Shown in pieces: positions 8,039-19,182 of a stretch of DNA of 64,000 bases (the first letter of the stretch is position 1; each line of letters opens with the position of its first letter). The DNA is from Candidatus Desulfofervidus auxilii (GTDB lineage Bacteria > Desulfobacterota > Desulfofervidia > Desulfofervidales > Desulfofervidaceae). Location: contig NZ_CP013015.1 in NCBI RefSeq assembly GCF_001577525.1, forward strand, positions 1,941,751 to 2,005,750, in the 5' to 3' direction. Both the position numbers and the translations under genes were made by a program. The notes below the pieces were generated by a model that saw nothing but the letters and a program-made list of their open reading frames with translations, made no database searches and was not told the origin of the DNA.

Positions 8039-9466
8039 TTATCCAAACCACCCTGATACCTGAGTCTTACCAAAGGAAATCCCAATGTGTTTTGGCTGTA
8101 AATATTCAAATAAACCCCATTTGCCCAATGTTCTTCCAAAGCCACTTTCCTTAAAACCACCAAAAGGAGTGCGGGCATCCATCTGAGCAAAGGTATTTAT
8201 CCAGACCGTGCCATATTGAGCATTTTCAGCCAATGCCTTTGCTTTTTTTAAATCTTTTGACCAGATCTGAAGCACTAAGCCCGTAGGGTTTTGTGCTATT
8301 ATGGTTTCTATTTCTTCTTGGTTAAATTTTTTTACTAACAAAATGGGATTGAAACATTCTGCATAAATCATTTCTGGTATTTCTATAATAGTGGGTTCAA
8401 AAAAATAACCTTTAGTTTCTAATGCCTTTCCGCCTTTAATGATTTTTGCCCTTTTTTCTTTAAATTCTTCTACCTTGTTTACTACTTCTTCTAAGTGTTT
8501 TTTTGACCTTAGAGGCCCCATACCTGTTAAGGCAGAACTAGGGTCTCCTACTTTTATCTTTTCCATTTTTTTACTTAAAAGCTCTAAAAACTGCTTATAA
8601 ATACCTTCTTCAATCAAACAAACACTGGTATTAATGCACATCTGTCCCTGTTTCATAAAGGCAGAGGCCATAATATTTTCTGATGATTCTTCCAGGTCTG
8701 CATCTGAAAAGACAATAGCCAGATTTACTCCACTTAATTCACTAATGACTTTTTTAGGCCTTTTTATACTTTCAAATATCTTTTTAAATGTTTCACTTGC
8801 ACCAGTGAAGGAAAACATATCTATATCTGATGCAGCCAATGCCTTTCCAATAATAGGGCCTTCTCCTGTAATGATGTTTATTAATCCCTCAGGAAAATCT
8901 AGCTCATCAATGTATTTTGCCAATTCTAATAAAGAGAGACTGCCAAGTTCAGATGGTTTAACAATTATGGCATTTCCTGCAGCCAAGGCAGCAGCGGCGT
9001 TAAATCCAAATAACATTAGAGGTACATTATAGGGTAAAAACATGCCCACTACACCAAAAGGGACATATTCAACCATATCAAAAGCATCTTTATTAAAGAA
9101 TGAGGGAAAAGAGACATTTTCTATCAAAGAAGCATAATATTCAAAACACTGAGCAGCTAAAGGAATATCCACAAAGAGTGTTTCTTTTATGGGTTTGCCT
9201 ATTTCTTTTGTTTCTAATTCAGCCAAATTTTTTAGATTTTCAAGGATTACCTTAGAAATACCTTGTAATAATTGTTTTCTTTCTTTAAAAGAGGTCTTTT
9301 GCCAGGTTTTTTGAGCCGATTTTGCTTTTTCAATACAAAATACCAAGTCACTTTCATCTGCTTGGGGTATTTGAGCAAAGACTTCTTGTGTAGCCGGATT
9401 TTCTATTAAAATTTTTTCTTTTTTATCCCTAAACTCTCCACCGATATACATACTATATGTGTGCAT
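8039..9466 (-). CDS. NAD(P)-dependent aldehyde dehydrogenase
   Basis: A 475-residue aldehyde dehydrogenase superfamily enzyme, normal length. The oxyanion asparagine is in PYNVPL, the nucleotide-binding turn in FTGASETF, the general-base glutamate in SELSGVN, and the catalytic cysteine in GQMCINTS. The ATG at 9466 has a GGAG ribosome site, and the gene begins 3 bases after the aldolase gene. It would oxidise an aldehyde to the acid. Directly downstream of a class II aldolase, it most simply takes the aldehyde fragment of the retro-aldol reaction, and the downstream acyl-CoA synthetases could then activate the acid (inference from order). It has no membrane segment. The exact substrate is unknown; SGVN in place of the usual LGGN-type motif is a small family variant. 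Confidence 0.92.
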   Translation of the reverse strand: MHTYSMYIGGEFRDKKEKILIENPATQEVFAQIPQADESDLVFCIEKAKSAQKTWQKTSFKERKQLLQGISKVILENLKNLAELETKEIGKPIKETLFVDIPLAAQCFEYYASLIENVSFPSFFNKDAFDMVEYVPFGVVGMFLPYNVPLMLFGFNAAAALAAGNAIIVKPSELGSLSLLELAKYIDELDFPEGLINIITGEGPIIGKALAASDIDMFSFTGASETFKKIFESIKRPKKVISELSGVNLAIVFSDADLEESSENIMASAFMKQGQMCINTSVCLIEEGIYKQFLELLSKKMEKIKVGDPSSALTGMGPLRSKKHLEEVVNKVEEFKEKRAKIIKGGKALETKGYFFEPTIIEIPEMIYAECFNPILLVKKFNQEEIETIIAQNPTGLVLQIWSKDLKKAKALAENAQYGTVWINTFAQMDARTPFGGFKESGFGRTLGKWGLFEYLQPKHIGISFGKTQVSGWFG

Positions 9467-9469
9467 TTT

Positions 9470-10450
9470 TTACTCCACTCCCACTTCTTTCCAAAGGGCA
9501 AATGTCCTTTCAAATACAGGAAACCATTTAGAAAGTTTATTGAAATCCCCCTTTAGTTTTATTTTGCCCTGGTTGAAGGCTACAAATGGATCGAGTTCAC
9601 CATTAAAAATTTTTTTCCAAAACTCCCCTTTAGCCGAAAACACAAATTCTGCATTTTCTTCACTATTTTTTACTTGTATTATCTTTCCTTGCTGATAGCA
9701 AAAAGAAATAGTTGTCTTGCTATCTGTTTCTTTATTGCATAAAACAGTAGTAAGATTGAGTTTTTCCCCTAAAGAACGGGCAGTTTGATCATTGTTTATT
9801 GTTTCTACCAAAGCCGCAATATGCTCTTTAGAAAATAATTTGTATTTCTTTACTTGGGTTTCTTTTTTAGGAGGGATTTTAGCCAATGACTTCAAGTTAT
9901 GAGTGATTAAACTAACCTTAGCGGTGGTTTCTAAAAGTTCAATTAAAGAAAACACAGAGACAAATTCCTTCCCTATGGCTACCACCCCATGATTTTTTAG
10001 CACTACTATATCATTGTTTTCTAGAGCACTTATCACTGGAGAAACATCTGTAACTGTAGGAGTAGTTTGAGGGATGGCAATAATATTGCCCAGATAAATT
10101 TTTTCTTCGAAGGTAATGGGCGTTAAGGTATCAAAATAGTGAAAATAATATACTGTCCAGGGCGAATGGGCATGGATGACAATAGGTTTTTCTTTAAAAG
10201 TTTTATGGATGACCAGATGAAGAGCTAATTCTGAAGTGGGTTTTTTACTACCTTCTAAAACATTGCCTTCTTTATCTATGACCAAAATATCTTCTTTTTC
10301 TAAAAATCCTAAATAAGCATTATGTGCGGTAATAAGAATCTTATCATTGATACATTTTGAAATATTGCCAGAACTTCCACAAAGCAGCCCCCTTTGATGC
10401 AACTGCCCTCCCCAGAATATGATTTCTTCTTTCTCTTGCTCGTAACTCAT
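9470..10450 (-). CDS. class II aldolase fused to SCP2-like lipid-binding domain
   Basis: A 326-residue two-domain protein. Residues about 1-200 are a class II (fuculose-phosphate type) aldolase. SGNIS is the phosphate-binding turn, the catalytic glutamate is in PTSELALH, and the metal histidines are in HAHSP and KNHGVVA. Residues about 225-326 resemble the SCP2 sterol-carrier fold: a long acidic strand region, then FWKKIFNGELDPFVAF, GKIKLKGD and a final helix. Aldolases of this family cleave 5-substituted ribulose-1-phosphates to DHAP and an aldehyde. The fused lipid-binding domain is unusual and suggests a hydrophobic substituent on the sugar. The start overlaps the previous stop (ATGA), which implies translational coupling. 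Confidence 0.82.
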   Translation of the reverse strand: MSYEQEKEEIIFWGGQLHQRGLLCGSSGNISKCINDKILITAHNAYLGFLEKEDILVIDKEGNVLEGSKKPTSELALHLVIHKTFKEKPIVIHAHSPWTVYYFHYFDTLTPITFEEKIYLGNIIAIPQTTPTVTDVSPVISALENNDIVVLKNHGVVAIGKEFVSVFSLIELLETTAKVSLITHNLKSLAKIPPKKETQVKKYKLFSKEHIAALVETINNDQTARSLGEKLNLTTVLCNKETDSKTTISFCYQQGKIIQVKNSEENAEFVFSAKGEFWKKIFNGELDPFVAFNQGKIKLKGDFNKLSKWFPVFERTFALWKEVGVE

Positions 10451-10902
10451 TTTATGAACTCCATGGGCACATATTCGTCTTTTGCTTCCACTGCTGCATT
10501 TTTGAAAAATAAACAGCCATCTATGGTTAATGCATCCTGGTCAAATACCCTTAAATCAATTTCTTCGCCTTTTAATGCCTTAATAGGCACCTGATGCAAA
10601 TGAGATAAAAGACAGACATAAAGGCTTCCACAGATACCCCAAAAATGGCCATTTTCCATTTTTTTATAAAAAAATAGCACCTCTTTTATTTTTTGTTTAT
10701 AAAAAAGAAGTCCTAACATATTATCTGTGACATAAATGGGTTTCACACCTTCTTTGTTTAATCTCTCTGCTACTTTAAGCCCTAAAATATAGGGTCTCAT
10801 TTCTGGTATAAACACCGAGTTGGTTTTTTTAATCTTTTTTAATCCTTCTTTTGAAGGAATGCCCCAAAGAAGAGAAAGACTATTTAGTTTTTCTAATCGC
10901 AT
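10447..10902 (-). CDS. half-length eIF2B/MtnA-like protein lacking catalytic residues
   Basis: A 151-residue protein that I read as a shortened, diverged relative of the next gene (10893-11780). The stretch VFIPEMRPYILGLKVAERLN followed by KPIYVTDNMLGLL mirrors VFVSETRPYLQGTRLTFWELN and AKLICDNQAAILM there, which is the C-terminal half of the MtnA/eIF2B fold. The catalytic cysteine (TICN) and the GADR aspartate of the isomerase are absent. The ATG at 10902 is preferred over an upstream GTG because of an AGGGTGG ribosome site. It overlaps both neighbours. It could be a regulatory or structural partner of the isomerase. This assignment rests on motif similarity only. Confidence 0.6.
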   Translation of the reverse strand: MRLEKLNSLSLLWGIPSKEGLKKIKKTNSVFIPEMRPYILGLKVAERLNKEGVKPIYVTDNMLGLLFYKQKIKEVLFFYKKMENGHFWGICGSLYVCLLSHLHQVPIKALKGEEIDLRVFDQDALTIDGCLFFKNAAVEAKDEYVPMEFIK

Positions 10903-11780
10903 ATCTCTATCCACCCTGAAATATATTTGGCCGGAGTAATATCAAATGCCGGATAAATTGTTTCTGGAAAATCCCTTTTTTTAAGCCACATAAACACCTC
11001 TTCTTCAGGCCTTTGTTCTATTTCAATATTTTCTATGTCTATTTCCCTTGGGTATTGGGTAAGGGCATAAAAAGGAATCTTAAAATAATGGGCAAGCCTG
11101 GCTAGGGCATAGGTGCCTATTTTATTTATAATATCTCCTTTTTTATTAGACCTATCTGCCCCAGTAATGACACAATTTATTTGACCGTCTTTCATTAAAA
11201 TGGCCGCCTGATTGTCGCATATCAATTTTGCAGGAATATGAGCCTTATTTAACTCCCAAAAGGTAAGTCTTGTCCCTTGTAAATATGGCCTGGTTTCTGA
11301 AACAAAAAATATGGCTTCCTTTCCTATTTCCTTTAAGGCAGAATACAAATAAACGAGTTCTCCATTTAGATTACAGATAGTTAAAATTCGGGCTTCAGCA
11401 GGCAACAATTTGGCCAATTTTTTAACCCGTTTTTTTCTCTTTTCTTCAAATCCCTGGACAAAACCATTTACTGCCTGCTTTATATCTAAATTCTGTCCAC
11501 AGGCTTTCTTTAATATTTCTGCCAGACGGAAAAAATCAAAGGTAGGACGTATTTTTTTAAAGGCCATAGCAGTTTTATCAATTTCTCTCACTAAAGCACA
11601 GGTATAAAAAAACAATAATACCTGACCAAAGGCCCTGGTCTTCATTTTTCCTAAGACTTCTAAGGCCTCATCTAAACTTTTCACTGTAATATATGCTTCT
11701 TTAAAAGGAAGTTGCGTTTCATCTAAGACATAAATAGTATTATTTTCCATCCTTACCGGAAAGGCCAGTGGATTATACAT
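10893..11780 (-). CDS. MtnA/eIF2B-like sugar-1-phosphate isomerase
   Basis: A 295-residue protein of the MtnA/eIF2B-alpha family. Members of the enzymatic branch convert 5-methylthioribose-1-phosphate or 5-deoxyribose-1-phosphate to the ribulose-1-phosphate. Both catalytic signatures are visible: the cysteine in LTICNLNGE and the aspartate in ITGADRSNKKGD, followed by the family hallmark NKIGTYALA. That argues for a true isomerase rather than a translation factor. The protein is somewhat shorter than classical MtnA. The ATG at 11780 has a GGAG site and overlaps the phosphorylase stop by 8 bases. Between a nucleoside phosphorylase and a class II aldolase it supplies the middle step of a DHAP-shunt-type sequence. 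The 5-substituent of the sugar is not known. Confidence 0.82.
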   Translation of the reverse strand: MYNPLAFPVRMENNTIYVLDETQLPFKEAYITVKSLDEALEVLGKMKTRAFGQVLLFFYTCALVREIDKTAMAFKKIRPTFDFFRLAEILKKACGQNLDIKQAVNGFVQGFEEKRKKRVKKLAKLLPAEARILTICNLNGELVYLYSALKEIGKEAIFFVSETRPYLQGTRLTFWELNKAHIPAKLICDNQAAILMKDGQINCVITGADRSNKKGDIINKIGTYALARLAHYFKIPFYALTQYPREIDIENIEIEQRPEEEVFMWLKKRDFPETIYPAFDITPAKYISGWIEICD

Positions 11781-12504
11781 CAATTACTCCAATCAGATCA
11801 AAGGCACGGTCAATCATCTTTTTTTCAGCATCAAAAACTTTAATACTGGCAAAACCAATTTCTCCTGTAATTAAATTATCACTGACCAATAAAATAGCGG
11901 CTGCTTTTTTGTCATAAAGATTAGCAATAGTTAAAAAAGGGCTGGTCACCATATCTACGGCAATGGCTCCTTGACTGATAGCCTCATTGACCACTTCTTT
12001 TGTTTCTCTCAATAAGGCGTCTGTGGTCCAAACCATACCTTTATGTATCTCTTTAAAGACCGTGGCCAATTTACCATTTAATTCCTGATCCGCCTCAGGG
12101 ATAGCCCCATCATTTACATAATATCTAGTAACCCCATCTCCCCTTAAGACACTCTCTACTAGAACATAATCCCCAATGTTTATCTCTTTTCGCATACTGC
12201 CACATGAACCAAGTCTGATTAAATAATCCACTCCCCCTGCACAGAGCAATTCTGTTACTAAAGCCGCATCTGGGGCATACATTCCACCATTCCCTACAGT
12301 TACTCGCTTTCCTTTATATTCTCCTGTCCAAAAGGTGTAACCAAAGGCAGAAAAGTTCTTTAAGGGATTTTTTAGTTTTTCTAAAGCCATACTTACTCTT
12401 TGGGGTTGACCACTGATAATGGCAATTTTTGCCAAATCTCCTTCTTTAAACTGCACTGCCTTTAATAAATCCATTGGTGTGATGTGAATTTCCCTTTGCA
12501 TCAT
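11773..12504 (-). CDS. nucleoside phosphorylase-like protein (PNP/UDP family)
   Basis: A 243-residue NP-I family protein. SGQPQRV matches the phosphate-binding start of the fold, GVDYLIRLGSCGSM the central strand, and the catalytic aspartate stands in LLVSDN. The usual ribose-binding motif (EMEAAG in E. coli PNP) reads DMVTSP here, so the glutamate that binds the ribose 2'- and 3'-hydroxyls in E. coli is not conserved. That hints at a non-standard nucleoside. The start is placed at the first of two adjacent ATGs (12504), which has a TAGGAG site. It follows the radical SAM gene by 10 bases. The expected reaction is phosphorolysis of an adenosine-type nucleoside to adenine and a 5-substituted ribose-1-phosphate. 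MTA/5'-deoxyadenosine phosphorylase is the conservative alternative. Confidence 0.78.
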   Translation of the reverse strand: MMQREIHITPMDLLKAVQFKEGDLAKIAIISGQPQRVSMALEKLKNPLKNFSAFGYTFWTGEYKGKRVTVGNGGMYAPDAALVTELLCAGGVDYLIRLGSCGSMRKEINIGDYVLVESVLRGDGVTRYYVNDGAIPEADQELNGKLATVFKEIHKGMVWTTDALLRETKEVVNEAISQGAIAVDMVTSPFLTIANLYDKKAAAILLVSDNLITGEIGFASIKVFDAEKKMIDRAFDLIGVIDV

Positions 12505-12514
12505 TTTTAGGCTC

Positions 12515-13975
12515 CTAAACAAAGATTTCATCTTCAATAGCTGCTTTGGTATGGGCTTCGGCGGTTTCTATATAGCATCTAGCAGTAAGCCTACAGAAAG
12601 GATGATATTTTTTATCATATAAAATCCTCTGTACTCGTCCGGGCTGACTATAAAACTCCCTGTTTGCCCAGGCCGCCAATCTACCCAGGTCTTCTTTGCT
12701 TAGATATTTGGTAGATACCACGGCATGCTGAAAGTCCCACTTTCTTAAATCCTGATCTTCAATGAATGGCTCAAGCTCCTTATACATGGGAATACCTGGT
12801 AATGGAGTCATAATTTGGAGGGCAGTCATATCAGGGTCAATATGGTTAATTCTTTCAAACCTGTCTTTAATCTTTACTTCATCGTCATCTGGAAATCCTA
12901 CCATCCAGGTAACTACTGACATAATGTTATTTTCCCGAAAGAGTCTTACAGTTTCTGCTACCTGATCCACACTAATTCCTTTATTTATCTTCTCTAAGGT
13001 TTTTTTATCTACTGCCTCCATCCCAAAAAGCCCACAAACAAAGCCTATTTTTCTCAAGGGTTTTAATAAATCCTTGTCTCTCAAGTGATATGGGGCACGT
13101 CCCATAAAGAAAAATTTGACCTTGAGCTGTCTCTTTTCCATTTCTTCAATAAATTCCTCCATCCTTTCTCTATATACATTAAAATCTTCATCCATCATCA
13201 CTACCCACTTTGCCCCAAACTGTTTCTCTAGGAGTTCTAATTCCTCTGCTACCCTTTTGCCTGAACGAATGCGGTAACATGTCCAATCTTTATCCCCTCT
13301 ATGGTCATAGTTGGTCCAACCCACACAAAAACGACAACCATTGGGACAACCTCTGGAGTGATAGGTTTCTACATAATGCTTGATCCGGTTAAAACCAATA
13401 TATTTATCCATAGGAAATAAATCATAGGCAGGGAGGGGTAAATCATCCAGATTTTCTATTAAAGGACGATATTCTGTAAGTTCTACTGTCCCATTATTCC
13501 TATAACTTAGCCCCTTTATTGATGGAATATCAGGGTCTTTTTTACTTAATTCTTTAGTTAGTTCTGGCATGGTGCGTTCTGTTTCACCAGCAATGACAAA
13601 ATCAAATTCAGGTGTTTCTTCAAGCATCTTTGGTGCATTTGCCCCGTAAAAAAATCCCCCTACACAAATTTGGACTTGTGGCATGTTTTCCTTAATAAGC
13701 TTGGCTGCCCTTTGATACCTTGGATGGATAGCCGCTACACCGGTAGTCTGTAAGGCATCTCCCATATAGACTAAGTTTGGTTCTATTTCTTTAATAGCAT
13801 TAATCATTTGTGTTTCACTAAAATTTAAGGCACGACAATCCAGGACTTTAATTTCAATCTCTGGATACCATTCCCTTAAATTGGCAGCTAATTGGGCATG
13901 ATTGACATTTATGGCAATGTGTCTTCCCCAAGTAACCCAGCCACCCATGGGGGGTTGTAAAAACAGAACCTTCAT
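12515..13975 (-). CDS. B12-binding-domain radical SAM enzyme
   Basis: A 486-residue protein. Residues about 1-150 form a cobalamin-binding-like Rossmann domain (LFLQPPMGGW, LVYMGDALQTTG, ICVGGFF, FVIAGETE). A radical SAM TIM barrel follows, with the cluster motif CPNGCRFC near residue 212 and the later elements MDEDF, GMEAVDKKTLEKINKG and TWMVGFPDD. There is a C-terminal extension of about 100 residues. The family includes methyltransferases, ring-contracting enzymes and hopanoid-modifying proteins. The ATG at 13975 has an AAGGAGG site. Immediately downstream is a nucleoside phosphorylase, and any radical SAM enzyme of this class releases or attaches 5'-deoxyadenosyl groups. Whether this one methylates, rearranges or adenosylates its substrate cannot be told from sequence. 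Confidence 0.92.
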   Translation of the reverse strand: MKVLFLQPPMGGWVTWGRHIAINVNHAQLAANLREWYPEIEIKVLDCRALNFSETQMINAIKEIEPNLVYMGDALQTTGVAAIHPRYQRAAKLIKENMPQVQICVGGFFYGANAPKMLEETPEFDFVIAGETERTMPELTKELSKKDPDIPSIKGLSYRNNGTVELTEYRPLIENLDDLPLPAYDLFPMDKYIGFNRIKHYVETYHSRGCPNGCRFCVGWTNYDHRGDKDWTCYRIRSGKRVAEELELLEKQFGAKWVVMMDEDFNVYRERMEEFIEEMEKRQLKVKFFFMGRAPYHLRDKDLLKPLRKIGFVCGLFGMEAVDKKTLEKINKGISVDQVAETVRLFRENNIMSVVTWMVGFPDDDEVKIKDRFERINHIDPDMTALQIMTPLPGIPMYKELEPFIEDQDLRKWDFQHAVVSTKYLSKEDLGRLAAWANREFYSQPGRVQRILYDKKYHPFCRLTARCYIETAEAHTKAAIEDEIFV

Positions 13976-16412: not shown

Positions 16413-16846
16413 TATCTCTAGTATCCAATAGCCTCTCCTTTTCTCTTTTTTGCTTCCATCCCATACCCAAGCTAAATAAGGCATTTTGTTAGCATAACTC
16501 TTGCTTATGTCACTTAAATCAACAGCAATTACACTGTCTTTTCTTATTTTTATTCCTGCCTGACGGCAGGCAGGGCCCCATACTTGATAATTTCCTCATT
16601 TAACTGCTCAGAAAAATCCTCTCTGCTTATCTGTCTTGAAAGCCTACATTCTGTCTTAATTAAGGAAATGTCTTCATTTAAAGCACGGGCTATATTTGAA
16701 AGATTCACATCTTTAGCTGCTTGAATTCCATAAATCATCTGATGAATGGACTTCCCCTTGGGCTTTTTAAAACTTCTGCTCACTTTATGACTGAACTTAG
16801 TTATTTGGGCTTTTACCTTAGAAATAAGTTTAATTTCTGAATACAT
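16404..16846 (-). pseudogene. truncated DDE transposase, interrupted by a palindrome
   Basis: The N-terminal part of a DDE-type transposase reads from 16846 (MYSEIKLISKVKAQI, IHQMIYGIQAAKD) until a GC-rich palindrome at 16555-16574 breaks the frame. On the far side another frame continues as IAVDLSDISKSYANKM, then YLAWVWDGSKKEKRRGYW, which is the first catalytic-aspartate region of such enzymes. It then stops, so the rest of the transposase is missing. This is a dead insertion-sequence fragment. The family is probably IS4-like, but I cannot name the element. Confidence 0.75.
16555..16574. repeat. GC-rich palindrome (CCTGCCTG.CGGCAGGCAGG type)
   Basis: A 20-base near-perfect palindrome inserted in the transposase remnant. 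It is one of about fourteen related palindromes in this window. Confidence 0.8.
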
Positions 16847-16886: not shown

Positions 16887-16915
16887 CACTGCTTCTTAAG
16901 CTAGACAAAAAGACG

Positions 16916-17018
16916 TATTCCACTTATTGAACGCCAAAAATCCTTAATTCATCCCTGCCTGCCTGCCGGCAGGCAGACAGGGATGTTTTTAAAGATTAAC
17001 TTCTAAATTTTGGGGAAT
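16916..17018 (+). repeat. about 100-bp dispersed element with central palindrome, copy 1
   Basis: The segment from TATTCCACTTATTG to GGGGAAT recurs almost base for base in reverse orientation at 39474-39572. A CCTGCCTGCCGGCAGGCAG palindrome (16953-16982) lies in its middle; it differs from copy 2 by one extra four-base palindrome unit. It contains no coding capacity and looks like a miniature mobile or REP-type element. Confidence 0.75.
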
Positions 17019-17036
17019 GTCCAATCTATTTTTCTC

Positions 17037-17070: not shown

Positions 17071-19182
17071 GTGCAAGTTAAAATCAGCGGTTTTGCAGAG
17101 GACAAAGTGAGCGAAGAAATAGAATGGGTAGAAGCACCCTACGACGTACCTTTTAAAAATCTCAAAAACAATGTGGGAGAGGTACTGAAACGTTTTGACC
17201 AACAGTTATTTACACTGCATGATGCAAATCATTGTCGCCATGTCGAAAGGATGGTCAAAGCAATTCTGGTGAAGGCAATGGAGAGGACGAATATAGAACT
17301 TAGTCCACTAGAACGTTTTCTGCTCTTCTCAGCAGTGTGGGTGCACGACGTGGGCATGGATGACAAAATAGCCGAGGAATATTTTAAAACTATGATGGGA
17401 GAGGCACTTCTTGATAGAAAGAGGGAGGAGCATCATTACATTTCTGCTTGGTATCTTCTGAAATATTACGAGGAGATTTTTTCCAAACCTACCAAGATTC
17501 TAGACAAGCTGCATTATGATCTTGAAAGATACGTCAGAAGCATAGCGGTGATAATACGGTACCACAGAAAAATTGAGTCTCTCGATACATGTCCCAAGAC
17601 AGATTACATAAAAGGAGAGATTATCAGGCTCCGCCTGCTCAGTGCCATTTTGAGATTGGCTGATACCCTCCATATTGACAGCACACGTGTTGATCCAAAT
17701 CTTTATGCAATGGTCCAGATTGCTGCATTTGATAGGGCTGCCAGGCTACACTGGTTGAAATCGTTCTTTGTTTCCAATGTGCACATAAATCCCGAGACAC
17801 AGACAATTAGTGTCACTCTTGACCTACCTGATCATAATCTCTTTGCCGGTTACGTTGGTAAAAGCAGAAGCCCCACTATGGGAGACATATGGAAGCTGCC
17901 CAAAAAGATTGACGAACAAATAAAGAACCTCGAGTACATAATCAACTCAGACATAAAAGAAGATCTGGTAGCGGTAAACAAAATCTTTACAGATTACAAA
18001 ATGCCTACCTACGTAAGGGTAAAGATACAGAGAAGGGTTGTCCCGGGATTCTCCATAGACGCATATAACGAGTTTGTGAGTCTTTTGAGTGAGTTGGACA
18101 TGCTGTTTTCCCCTTACACCTCGAAGGTCATCAAAAGGGCTCTGGAGTGCCTGAGATCATTTCAGAAACACGACTTTAAGAACCGCATTGAAAATTTCCA
18201 AAGTCAACTCCGGCAAATGCTGGTTTATTTTGATCAGATTCTTGCCAAACGACCGTGCCATCTCGGGTTGCGCAAGATCAGAGATCTCGTCGAACTAGTC
18301 CAGAGAGACCTTAACAGGTGCCTCCCTTCTCATCCCAACCCTGGAGAACTGATAGGATCCTTTCAGGCCAAACTTGGCCAGATTGCCAATTTAATCGAGA
18401 ATTCTATGGATTCCGCCAAAGAAAAGATCGCTGGCAAATGCAAAGAAGTTATAGGCGAGGAAGCTGAAAGCATATTTCTGTTTGGCTACAGTTCGACAGT
18501 ACTGAAGCTGTTAGGGAAAATGGCAGTAAAGGAGCCTCACGCCCGAAACAGACTGAAAATCTTCGTTTTGGAATGCAGCGGAAAAAGAAAATTTACGCAC
18601 AGCAACCTGCTTGAGTACAACGACGGCCTTCGCTATGCGATTGATATCTCAAAGCTGGGATACAAAAAAGTCTTTATCATTCCGGACACAGCCTTTCCAT
18701 CCTTGCTTAACATGGGTGCAACTGCAACAGACATAAGCCAGGTGGTGCGTGAAATTGAACCTCCCGACCCAGGAAGGTCAGTCGTGTTATTCGGGACAAA
18801 CGGAATAGATGAAAACGGCGACTGTGGTCACACCTCAGGACACCTGATGGTATGCATAATAGCCGGGTATTTCAAAGTACCAGTGAAAGTAGTCACGCAT
18901 TCTTTCAAAATCGGCACAATACCGTGGAACTTACAGGCACGTAGAGAAGGCGATTGGCTGACCACCCAGCCCAATTTGGTCGAGGATATGCGGGACAGCG
19001 GTGTTCAGCTGTTCAATCCGAGAGAAGATAAGATTCCGTTCAACCTTGTGAGTGAGATTTATACAGAGAACATTGATATAAGAGGAAGTAAAAGTGAGAA
19101 AAAAAACCAGCTGGCTGAGCTGTTGAAGTTTTCCAGAGAGTCCTTTGAAAAACTGAAGTACTGTCTGCAACAATGCCAGTAG
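17071..19182 (+). CDS. HD-domain phosphohydrolase fused to eIF2B-like (ISOCOT-fold) domain
   Basis: A 703-residue soluble protein. Residues about 30-210 form an HD domain with H50/H54/H57, the H92-D93 pair in WVHDVGMDD, H121/H122, H165 (RYHRK) and D198 (RLADTLHID). This resembles HD domains found in bacterial conflict and stress proteins. Residues about 330-460 are helical. Residues about 464-640 resemble eIF2B-alpha: FLFGYSSTVLKLL, VLECSGKRKFTH, FGTNGIDENGDCGHTSG and VPVKVVTHSFKIG. The MtnA catalytic Cys and Asp are missing there, so the domain likely senses a nucleotide or sugar phosphate. The start is GTG, with an in-frame stop at 17038 and no clear ribosome site. Codon use looks richer in G+C than neighbours, and it sits between decayed transposons, so acquisition by transfer is likely. 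Substrate unknown. Confidence 0.75.
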   Translation: MQVKISGFAEDKVSEEIEWVEAPYDVPFKNLKNNVGEVLKRFDQQLFTLHDANHCRHVERMVKAILVKAMERTNIELSPLERFLLFSAVWVHDVGMDDKIAEEYFKTMMGEALLDRKREEHHYISAWYLLKYYEEIFSKPTKILDKLHYDLERYVRSIAVIIRYHRKIESLDTCPKTDYIKGEIIRLRLLSAILRLADTLHIDSTRVDPNLYAMVQIAAFDRAARLHWLKSFFVSNVHINPETQTISVTLDLPDHNLFAGYVGKSRSPTMGDIWKLPKKIDEQIKNLEYIINSDIKEDLVAVNKIFTDYKMPTYVRVKIQRRVVPGFSIDAYNEFVSLLSELDMLFSPYTSKVIKRALECLRSFQKHDFKNRIENFQSQLRQMLVYFDQILAKRPCHLGLRKIRDLVELVQRDLNRCLPSHPNPGELIGSFQAKLGQIANLIENSMDSAKEKIAGKCKEVIGEEAESIFLFGYSSTVLKLLGKMAVKEPHARNRLKIFVLECSGKRKFTHSNLLEYNDGLRYAIDISKLGYKKVFIIPDTAFPSLLNMGATATDISQVVREIEPPDPGRSVVLFGTNGIDENGDCGHTSGHLMVCIIAGYFKVPVKVVTHSFKIGTIPWNLQARREGDWLTTQPNLVEDMRDSGVQLFNPREDKIPFNLVSEIYTENIDIRGSKSEKKNQLAELLKFSRESFEKLKYCLQQCQ

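Follow-up and report, generated by a model that had tools for sequence, protein, structure and literature searches.

Within a 64,000-nucleotide stretch of Candidatus Desulfofervidus auxilii DNA (the window; the host genome is a single contig of 2.54 Mb), an open frame on the forward strand begins with a GTG start codon and encodes a protein of 703 residues free of internal stops, in agreement with the initial annotation, which had called this gene intact. Its product is composed of an HD-CE domain at the N-terminus and a domain of the eIF2B-alpha/beta/delta fold at the C-terminus, with a helical region between them. The gene, its parts and the flanking elements are as follows:

17071-19182, forward strand: HD-CE/eIF2B-like fusion gene, read as an open frame (family n=5; GC3 0.49 versus a mean of 0.31, z 4.0)
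17143-18039, forward strand: HD-CE domain with a trailing helix and strand, residues 25-323 (PF24391; seven residues identical in 16/16 domains; Z 14.2)
18055-18456, forward strand: helical middle, residues 329-462, with the invariant motif R394-x-C396-H397 (RxCH), delimited from low-confidence model secondary structure
18457-19152, forward strand: eIF2B-type Rossmann-like module, residues 463-694 (VIA-align Z 18.4; profile E 3e-10; pocket after PMC8187479)
16908-17024, no strand assigned: interspersed repeat of ~110 bases with a central G+C-rich palindrome, present at ~25-30 other places in the genome
19810-20781, reverse strand: broken IS1634-family transposase (NCBIfam NF033559, E 9e-30 and 2e-10; tblastn matches to annotated IS1634 transposases)

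The N-terminal half had initially been described as an HD domain that keeps its histidine and aspartate ligands, and we could assign it to a named family, HD-CE (PF24391), whose Pfam model matched residues 47-258 with an E-value of 4.9e-34 and 118.6 bits (cut-off 27). The ligands H54, H92, D93 and D198, together with H50, H121 and H165, are identical in 16/16 aligned HD-CE domains, which come from several phyla and are joined to any of a range of partners. The resulting pattern of candidate metal ligands, H-x3-H ... HD ... H ... H ... D, suggests that the HD-CE half is likely an active metal-dependent hydrolase. A two-metal site is possible, as in other members of the HD superfamily. An AlphaFold2 model of the 703-residue protein, generated from seven sequences, was only of middling quality (pLDDT 61, pTM 0.50), so that domain packing and gating lie beyond its reach. 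Residues 26-320 of this model resemble the C-terminal HD domains of exopolyphosphatase/GppA proteins, the closest solved fold (VIA-align Z 14.2), although the ASKHA kinase-like catalytic domains of the PPX/GppA proteins are absent from the fusion. Exopolyphosphatase was also the top match when the HD half was compared with PDB profiles (E 0.002), and further relatives included the HD domain protein 2o6i and cyclic-nucleotide phosphodiesterases. A model of the HD half made without an alignment (pLDDT 34) was useless and was discarded, as were weak Pfam matches of the full-length protein to BP28CT, GCHY-1 and LYRM2 that fell under the cut-off.

In the C-terminal half, the Pfam IF-2B model (PF01008) matched residues 571-666 with an E-value of 7.3e-11 and 42.3 bits (cut-off 22.4). 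In one homologue (L003) the same model was covered from position 8 to 280 of 280, at L003 residues 324-611, and as this match spans almost the entire model we consider the C-terminal module to be complete. The helical middle (329-462) occupies the position of the N-terminal helical domain of eIF2B, and the L003 match begins in the equivalent region. When a profile was built from the C-terminal halves of all five members of the family described below, its top match was human eIF2B-alpha (E 3e-10), followed by eIF2B-beta and ribose-1,5-bisphosphate (R15P) isomerase at ~1e-9, with MtnA further down (1.8e-7); hhalign of the C-terminal half against seven MtnA-type proteins gave 97.6%. The predicted structure aligned with human eIF2B-alpha over 168 residues at 3.3 A (VIA-align Z 18.4). 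A match to the eIF2B fold, which the initial annotation had named as the point on which its reading of this region would turn, was thus found by both profile and structure. The further claim that the domain lacks the MtnA catalytic residues also held: Gly472 replaces the catalytic Cys and Asn577 the catalytic Asp, and both replacements are invariant in 5/5 members. The five proteins were either unmatched by the NCBIfam isomerase models or scored far under their cut-offs. The fusion shares superfamily and fold with MtnA and R15P isomerase but not their catalytic Cys and Asp, while in eIF2B-alpha these two residues are likewise absent.

In human eIF2B-alpha, the subunit through which the stress sensor eIF2B detects sugar phosphates, the pocket that binds fructose 6-phosphate (F6P) contacts the sugar through G196, A129, Y130, E198 and N208 and the phosphate through R132 and K234 (PMC8187479). 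Equivalent positions were read from the profile alignment of the five C-terminal halves to human eIF2B-alpha. The glycine at G196 is kept as Gly575, Y130 corresponds to Tyr473 (Tyr in 4/5 members and Arg in L046), and K234 corresponds to Lys613, which is Lys or Arg in 5/5 members. The remaining contacts are replaced: A129, at the position of the MtnA catalytic Cys, by the invariant Gly472; E198 by the invariant Asn577; N208 by the invariant His587; and the phosphate-contacting R132 by Ser475, a position that holds Ser, Thr or Glu across the five members. The full F6P-contact set of eIF2B-alpha is thus not present. Beyond the pocket, K505, D518, D539, H591, R625, R651 and D653 are invariant within the module. 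The sugar-phosphate pocket is, by these contacts, retained yet rebuilt, and the known isomerase chemistry has been lost. The fusion further differs from eIF2B-alpha in being bacterial, joined to a hydrolase and without translation-factor partners.

Beyond what the initial annotation had described, the fusion proved to be a conserved multi-phylum family. Its five members are the 17071-19182 protein, L003 (genome G346), L004 (genome G163), L046 (a Planctomycetota MAG) and L047 (an Acidobacteria MAG). L003 and L004 came from the 395 genomes searched in the home phylum, Desulfobacterota, and L046 and L047 were recovered by a search with a three-row alignment; the 17071-19182 protein as sole query retrieved no members from genome contigs or viral contigs. 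The four homologues share 24-27% identity with the 17071-19182 protein, or 26-28% in a second alignment. Residues invariant in the family are H50, H54, H92, D93, R118, H121, H122, H165 and D198 in the N-terminal part, R394, C396 and H397 in the middle, and G472, S474, K505, Y516, D518, G519, Y522, A523, P538, D539, G575, N577, H587, G590, H591, R625, N649, P650, R651 and D653 in the C-terminal part. Pairwise identities are alike in the HD and eIF2B parts, which, together with the common motif in the middle, argues against a chance fusion. Phylogenetic analysis of 16 HD-CE domains placed the five from the fusions together on one side of a branch (support 87/87, recovered in 85% of bootstrap trees), and within this group Desulfobacterota sequences pair with that of Planctomycetota (92/94) and that of Acidobacteriota (95/92). 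These pairings between phyla point to horizontal transfer. The fusion was present in 3/395 genomes of Desulfobacterota, 1/392 of Planctomycetota and 1/396 of Acidobacteriota, counts that include the genome at the centre of each search (the 3/395 includes that of the 17071-19182 gene), and no member was found among plasmids, phages or viral contigs. The family is accordingly rare, patchily distributed across three phyla and horizontally spread. Several candidates were rejected: the long IF-2B open frames in G500 and G530 are ordinary MtnA genes with a spurious upstream extension, the HD match of L050 (Trueperaceae) lies within an open reading frame that we took to encode a protein of the Ppx/GppA type, and L052 (Trueperaceae) nearly repeats L050.

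The fusion gene stands out from its surroundings in composition, as had been noted initially: its G+C content is 43.9% versus a mean of 37.7%, and both this value and its GC3 are the highest of the 43 open reading frames in the window. The initial annotation had also placed the gene in a mobile island, among dead transposons and palindromes. The ~110-base repeat ends ~47 bases upstream of its start codon, and downstream of it lies the broken IS1634 transposase, which consists of two fragments with palindromes between them. No transposase match was obtained for the upstream fragment at 16550-16846, however, and nothing shows a single mobile element that carries the gene, so that the surroundings largely fit the description given whereas the term island is only partly supported. 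Cargo of one transposon is likewise an unsupported origin for the gene, as no matched ends were found around it. The ends of the 16908-17024 repeat are imperfectly inverted, giving it a MITE-like appearance. Palindromes of the form CTGCC-N4-GGCAG occur 13 times in the window versus 0.02 expected by chance, at positions that include 16556, 16959, 19823, 20304, 20506, 20878, 39516, 39774, 40136 and 46721, and several lie within the broken transposase frames.

To place the HD-CE half among its relatives, the partners of this domain in other proteins were compared. HD-CE was present in 16/395 genomes of Desulfobacterota. It is joined to Hsp90-like ATPase domains (L005, L081 and L082), to NACHT/STAND ATPases that in some cases carry an FGE-like domain (L049, L053, L055, L056, L087, L090 and L091), and to a CARF domain (L093). 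The gene for a CARF7-HD-CE protein (L098:2192-4165) has Cas6 and Cas7 genes on either side, and its locus, which also holds Cas10 and Cas5, matched type III-D models. In addition, the PADLOC model for the UG24 defence reverse transcriptase, a candidate defence RT, is matched in its C-terminal part by the HD-CE region. The HD-CE half of the fusion agrees with this family in its above-cut-off match, its residue pattern and its linkage to a further domain, and differs in that its partner is eIF2B-like, whereas the partners observed in other proteins were STAND/NACHT, Hsp90-like ATPase, CARF or nucleoside hydrolase domains. Among individual proteins, L053:9893-13096 and L087 are HD-CE-NACHT proteins with an FGE/sulfatase-modifying-like C-terminal domain and L090 is HD-CE-NACHT, these three occurring in Nitrospirota and Desulfobacterota, while L092:1-3747 has the unusual combination of HD-CE with a response-regulator receiver and an inosine-uridine nucleoside hydrolase. 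L098 is from a Desulfobacterota genome, and an MNT/HEPN-like gene adjoins its CARF7-HD-CE gene. The host genome (G000) itself holds a second HD-CE gene, encoding an HD-CE-STAND protein (G000:C1:2291880-2296860; L055:3884-8857), which an IS3-like element interrupts within the HD domain.

The recurrent joining of HD-CE to sensor or switch domains is the main ground on which we read the eIF2B-like half as a sensor, and its occurrence with NACHT/STAND, Hsp90-like ATPase, CARF and a candidate defence RT suggests a ligand-gated phosphohydrolase. We give roughly even chances to the proposal that the protein is a single-protein sensor-effector, in which the eIF2B-like half senses a phosphorylated metabolite and gates the HD-CE phosphohydrolase. 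The foreign composition of the gene, the lack of neighbours common to the five loci and the separate ordinary MtnA in each holder genome tested also favour this proposal. In the mechanism that we infer, which extends to dimerisation, ligand, direction of gating, substrate and physiological role, the eIF2B-like module, devoid of the isomerase residues, would form a dimer whose ancestral pocket takes up a small phosphorylated ligand, either a sugar phosphate or a nucleotide. Binding or loss of this ligand would bring about a conformational change that switches the HD-CE domain on or off, and the HD-CE domain would in turn hydrolyse a phosphodiester or phosphate ester, with a nucleotide as the likeliest substrate. 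The gene would pass horizontally between genomes as an accessory gene that stands alone, and a role in conflict or stress appears likelier than one in housekeeping. A counterpoint to the sensor reading is that so many polar residues of the eIF2B-like half are invariant, which could instead reflect a new catalytic activity. The eIF2B fold is known from isomerases and, in eukaryotes, from a stress sensor whose regulatory core it forms. Were the sensor reading true, this fold would serve outside translation simply to receive a signal, and a new type of sensor would stand beside the CARF, STAND and Hsp90 set joined to HD-CE effectors. Residues N577, H587 and H591, together with those of the HD domain, offer a handle toward the ligand and substrate and thereby toward HD-CE function. 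Both domains are known and their combination appears new, as we found no description of an HD-CE domain joined to an eIF2B module that lacks the isomerase residues; our search of the open-licence literature returned no papers on HD-CE or on this fusion, which is weak evidence of novelty.

As a special case of the sensor-effector reading, the protein may be a single-gene anti-phage system of the abortive-infection-like type, in which the eIF2B-like half would detect an infection-induced change in a metabolite or nucleotide, whereupon the HD half would destroy nucleotides or a second messenger and so halt the phage. Such a function is in keeping with the presence of HD-CE in the type III-D CRISPR CARF effector, in proteins with STAND/NACHT or Hsp90-like ATPase domains and in the UG24 DRT model, and with the foreign G+C content, cross-phylum transfer and rarity of the fusion. 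PADLOC, however, returned no match for the 17071-19182 protein and only weak HD-level matches for its homologues, and no defence island surrounds any of the five fusion loci, among whose 44 neighbours only a WYL regulator, an MNT-type gene and generic matches turned up. That no members were found among plasmids, phages or viral contigs also weighs against this reading, and we regard it as possible but on balance somewhat doubtful. A signal-gated hydrolase for defence or stress had been proposed initially; profile, structural and comparative evidence supports the idea of a sensor paired with a hydrolase, while the link to defence is indirect, coming from HD-CE in defence-type proteins and being offset by the want of a PADLOC match and of consistent defence neighbours. 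A parallel exists with the CARF-HD effectors of type III CRISPR-Cas, which likewise couple a ligand-sensing Rossmann-like domain to HD-CE, the logic seen in L098. The fusion departs from these effectors in its eIF2B-like sensor, its reversed domain order and its location away from any CRISPR locus, and no CARF or Csm6 match was found in the 17071-19182 protein. That the fusion is an immune or stress switch of this kind, a bacterial analogue of metabolite sensing by eIF2B coupled directly to an effector, with a catalytically dead eIF2B-type module reading a phosphorylated metabolite or nucleotide in place of the CARF domain and gating HD-CE, is a tentative proposal that we would hold to be doubtful.

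A bifunctional enzyme is a less probable alternative. Here the family-specific residues N577, H587, H591, D518 and R651 would enable the eIF2B-like half to catalyze a new reaction, with a phosphorylated sugar or a nucleotide as substrate, while the HD half would act on the substrate or product of that reaction, as in metabolite repair or the salvage of an unusual nucleotide. The many invariant polar residues of the second half, at and past the sugar-phosphate pocket positions, favour this alternative, as does the presence of sugar isomerases in the superfamily of this fold, but both known catalytic residues are gone and a patchy, horizontal distribution would be unusual for a salvage enzyme. 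The partners of HD-CE, moreover, are mostly switch domains rather than enzymes, the nucleoside-hydrolase fusion L092 being the exception. The genomic neighbourhoods also argue against this reading, since metabolic neighbour genes are not shared among the five loci. No neighbour gene was common to these loci, apart from a radical-SAM-type resemblance of a general kind at two of them. The homologues are thus not embedded in a metabolic operon; had they always been so, the initial annotation would have taken its own proposal as refuted. Taken together, these points make a bifunctional enzyme unlikely, and the sensor-effector remains the reading that we prefer.

Finally, it is very improbable that the protein is a metabolic homologue of MtnA or R15P isomerase with an incidental HD domain, acting in methylthioribose or nucleotide salvage, perhaps with a nearby operon: although its C-terminal half belongs to the same superfamily as MtnA and a salvage operon with PNP-family, MtnA-like and class II aldolase genes lies only 4.5 kb away, this reading is largely refuted by the replacement of the catalytic Cys and Asp in 5/5 members, by the separate ordinary MtnA genes in every holder genome tested (G000 and four others), by the position of the operon on the opposite strand, past an MMPL transporter gene, and by the lack of such an operon near the other four fusion copies. 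The operon-like run in question, at 8039-12537, encodes an aldehyde dehydrogenase, a class II aldolase with SCP2, an MtnA-type protein and a PNP-family protein, and resembles a salvage shunt for methylthioadenosine/5-deoxyribose. The run also contains a separate open reading frame of 155 residues (10447-10914), whose match to the IF-2B model is confined to the middle of that model.
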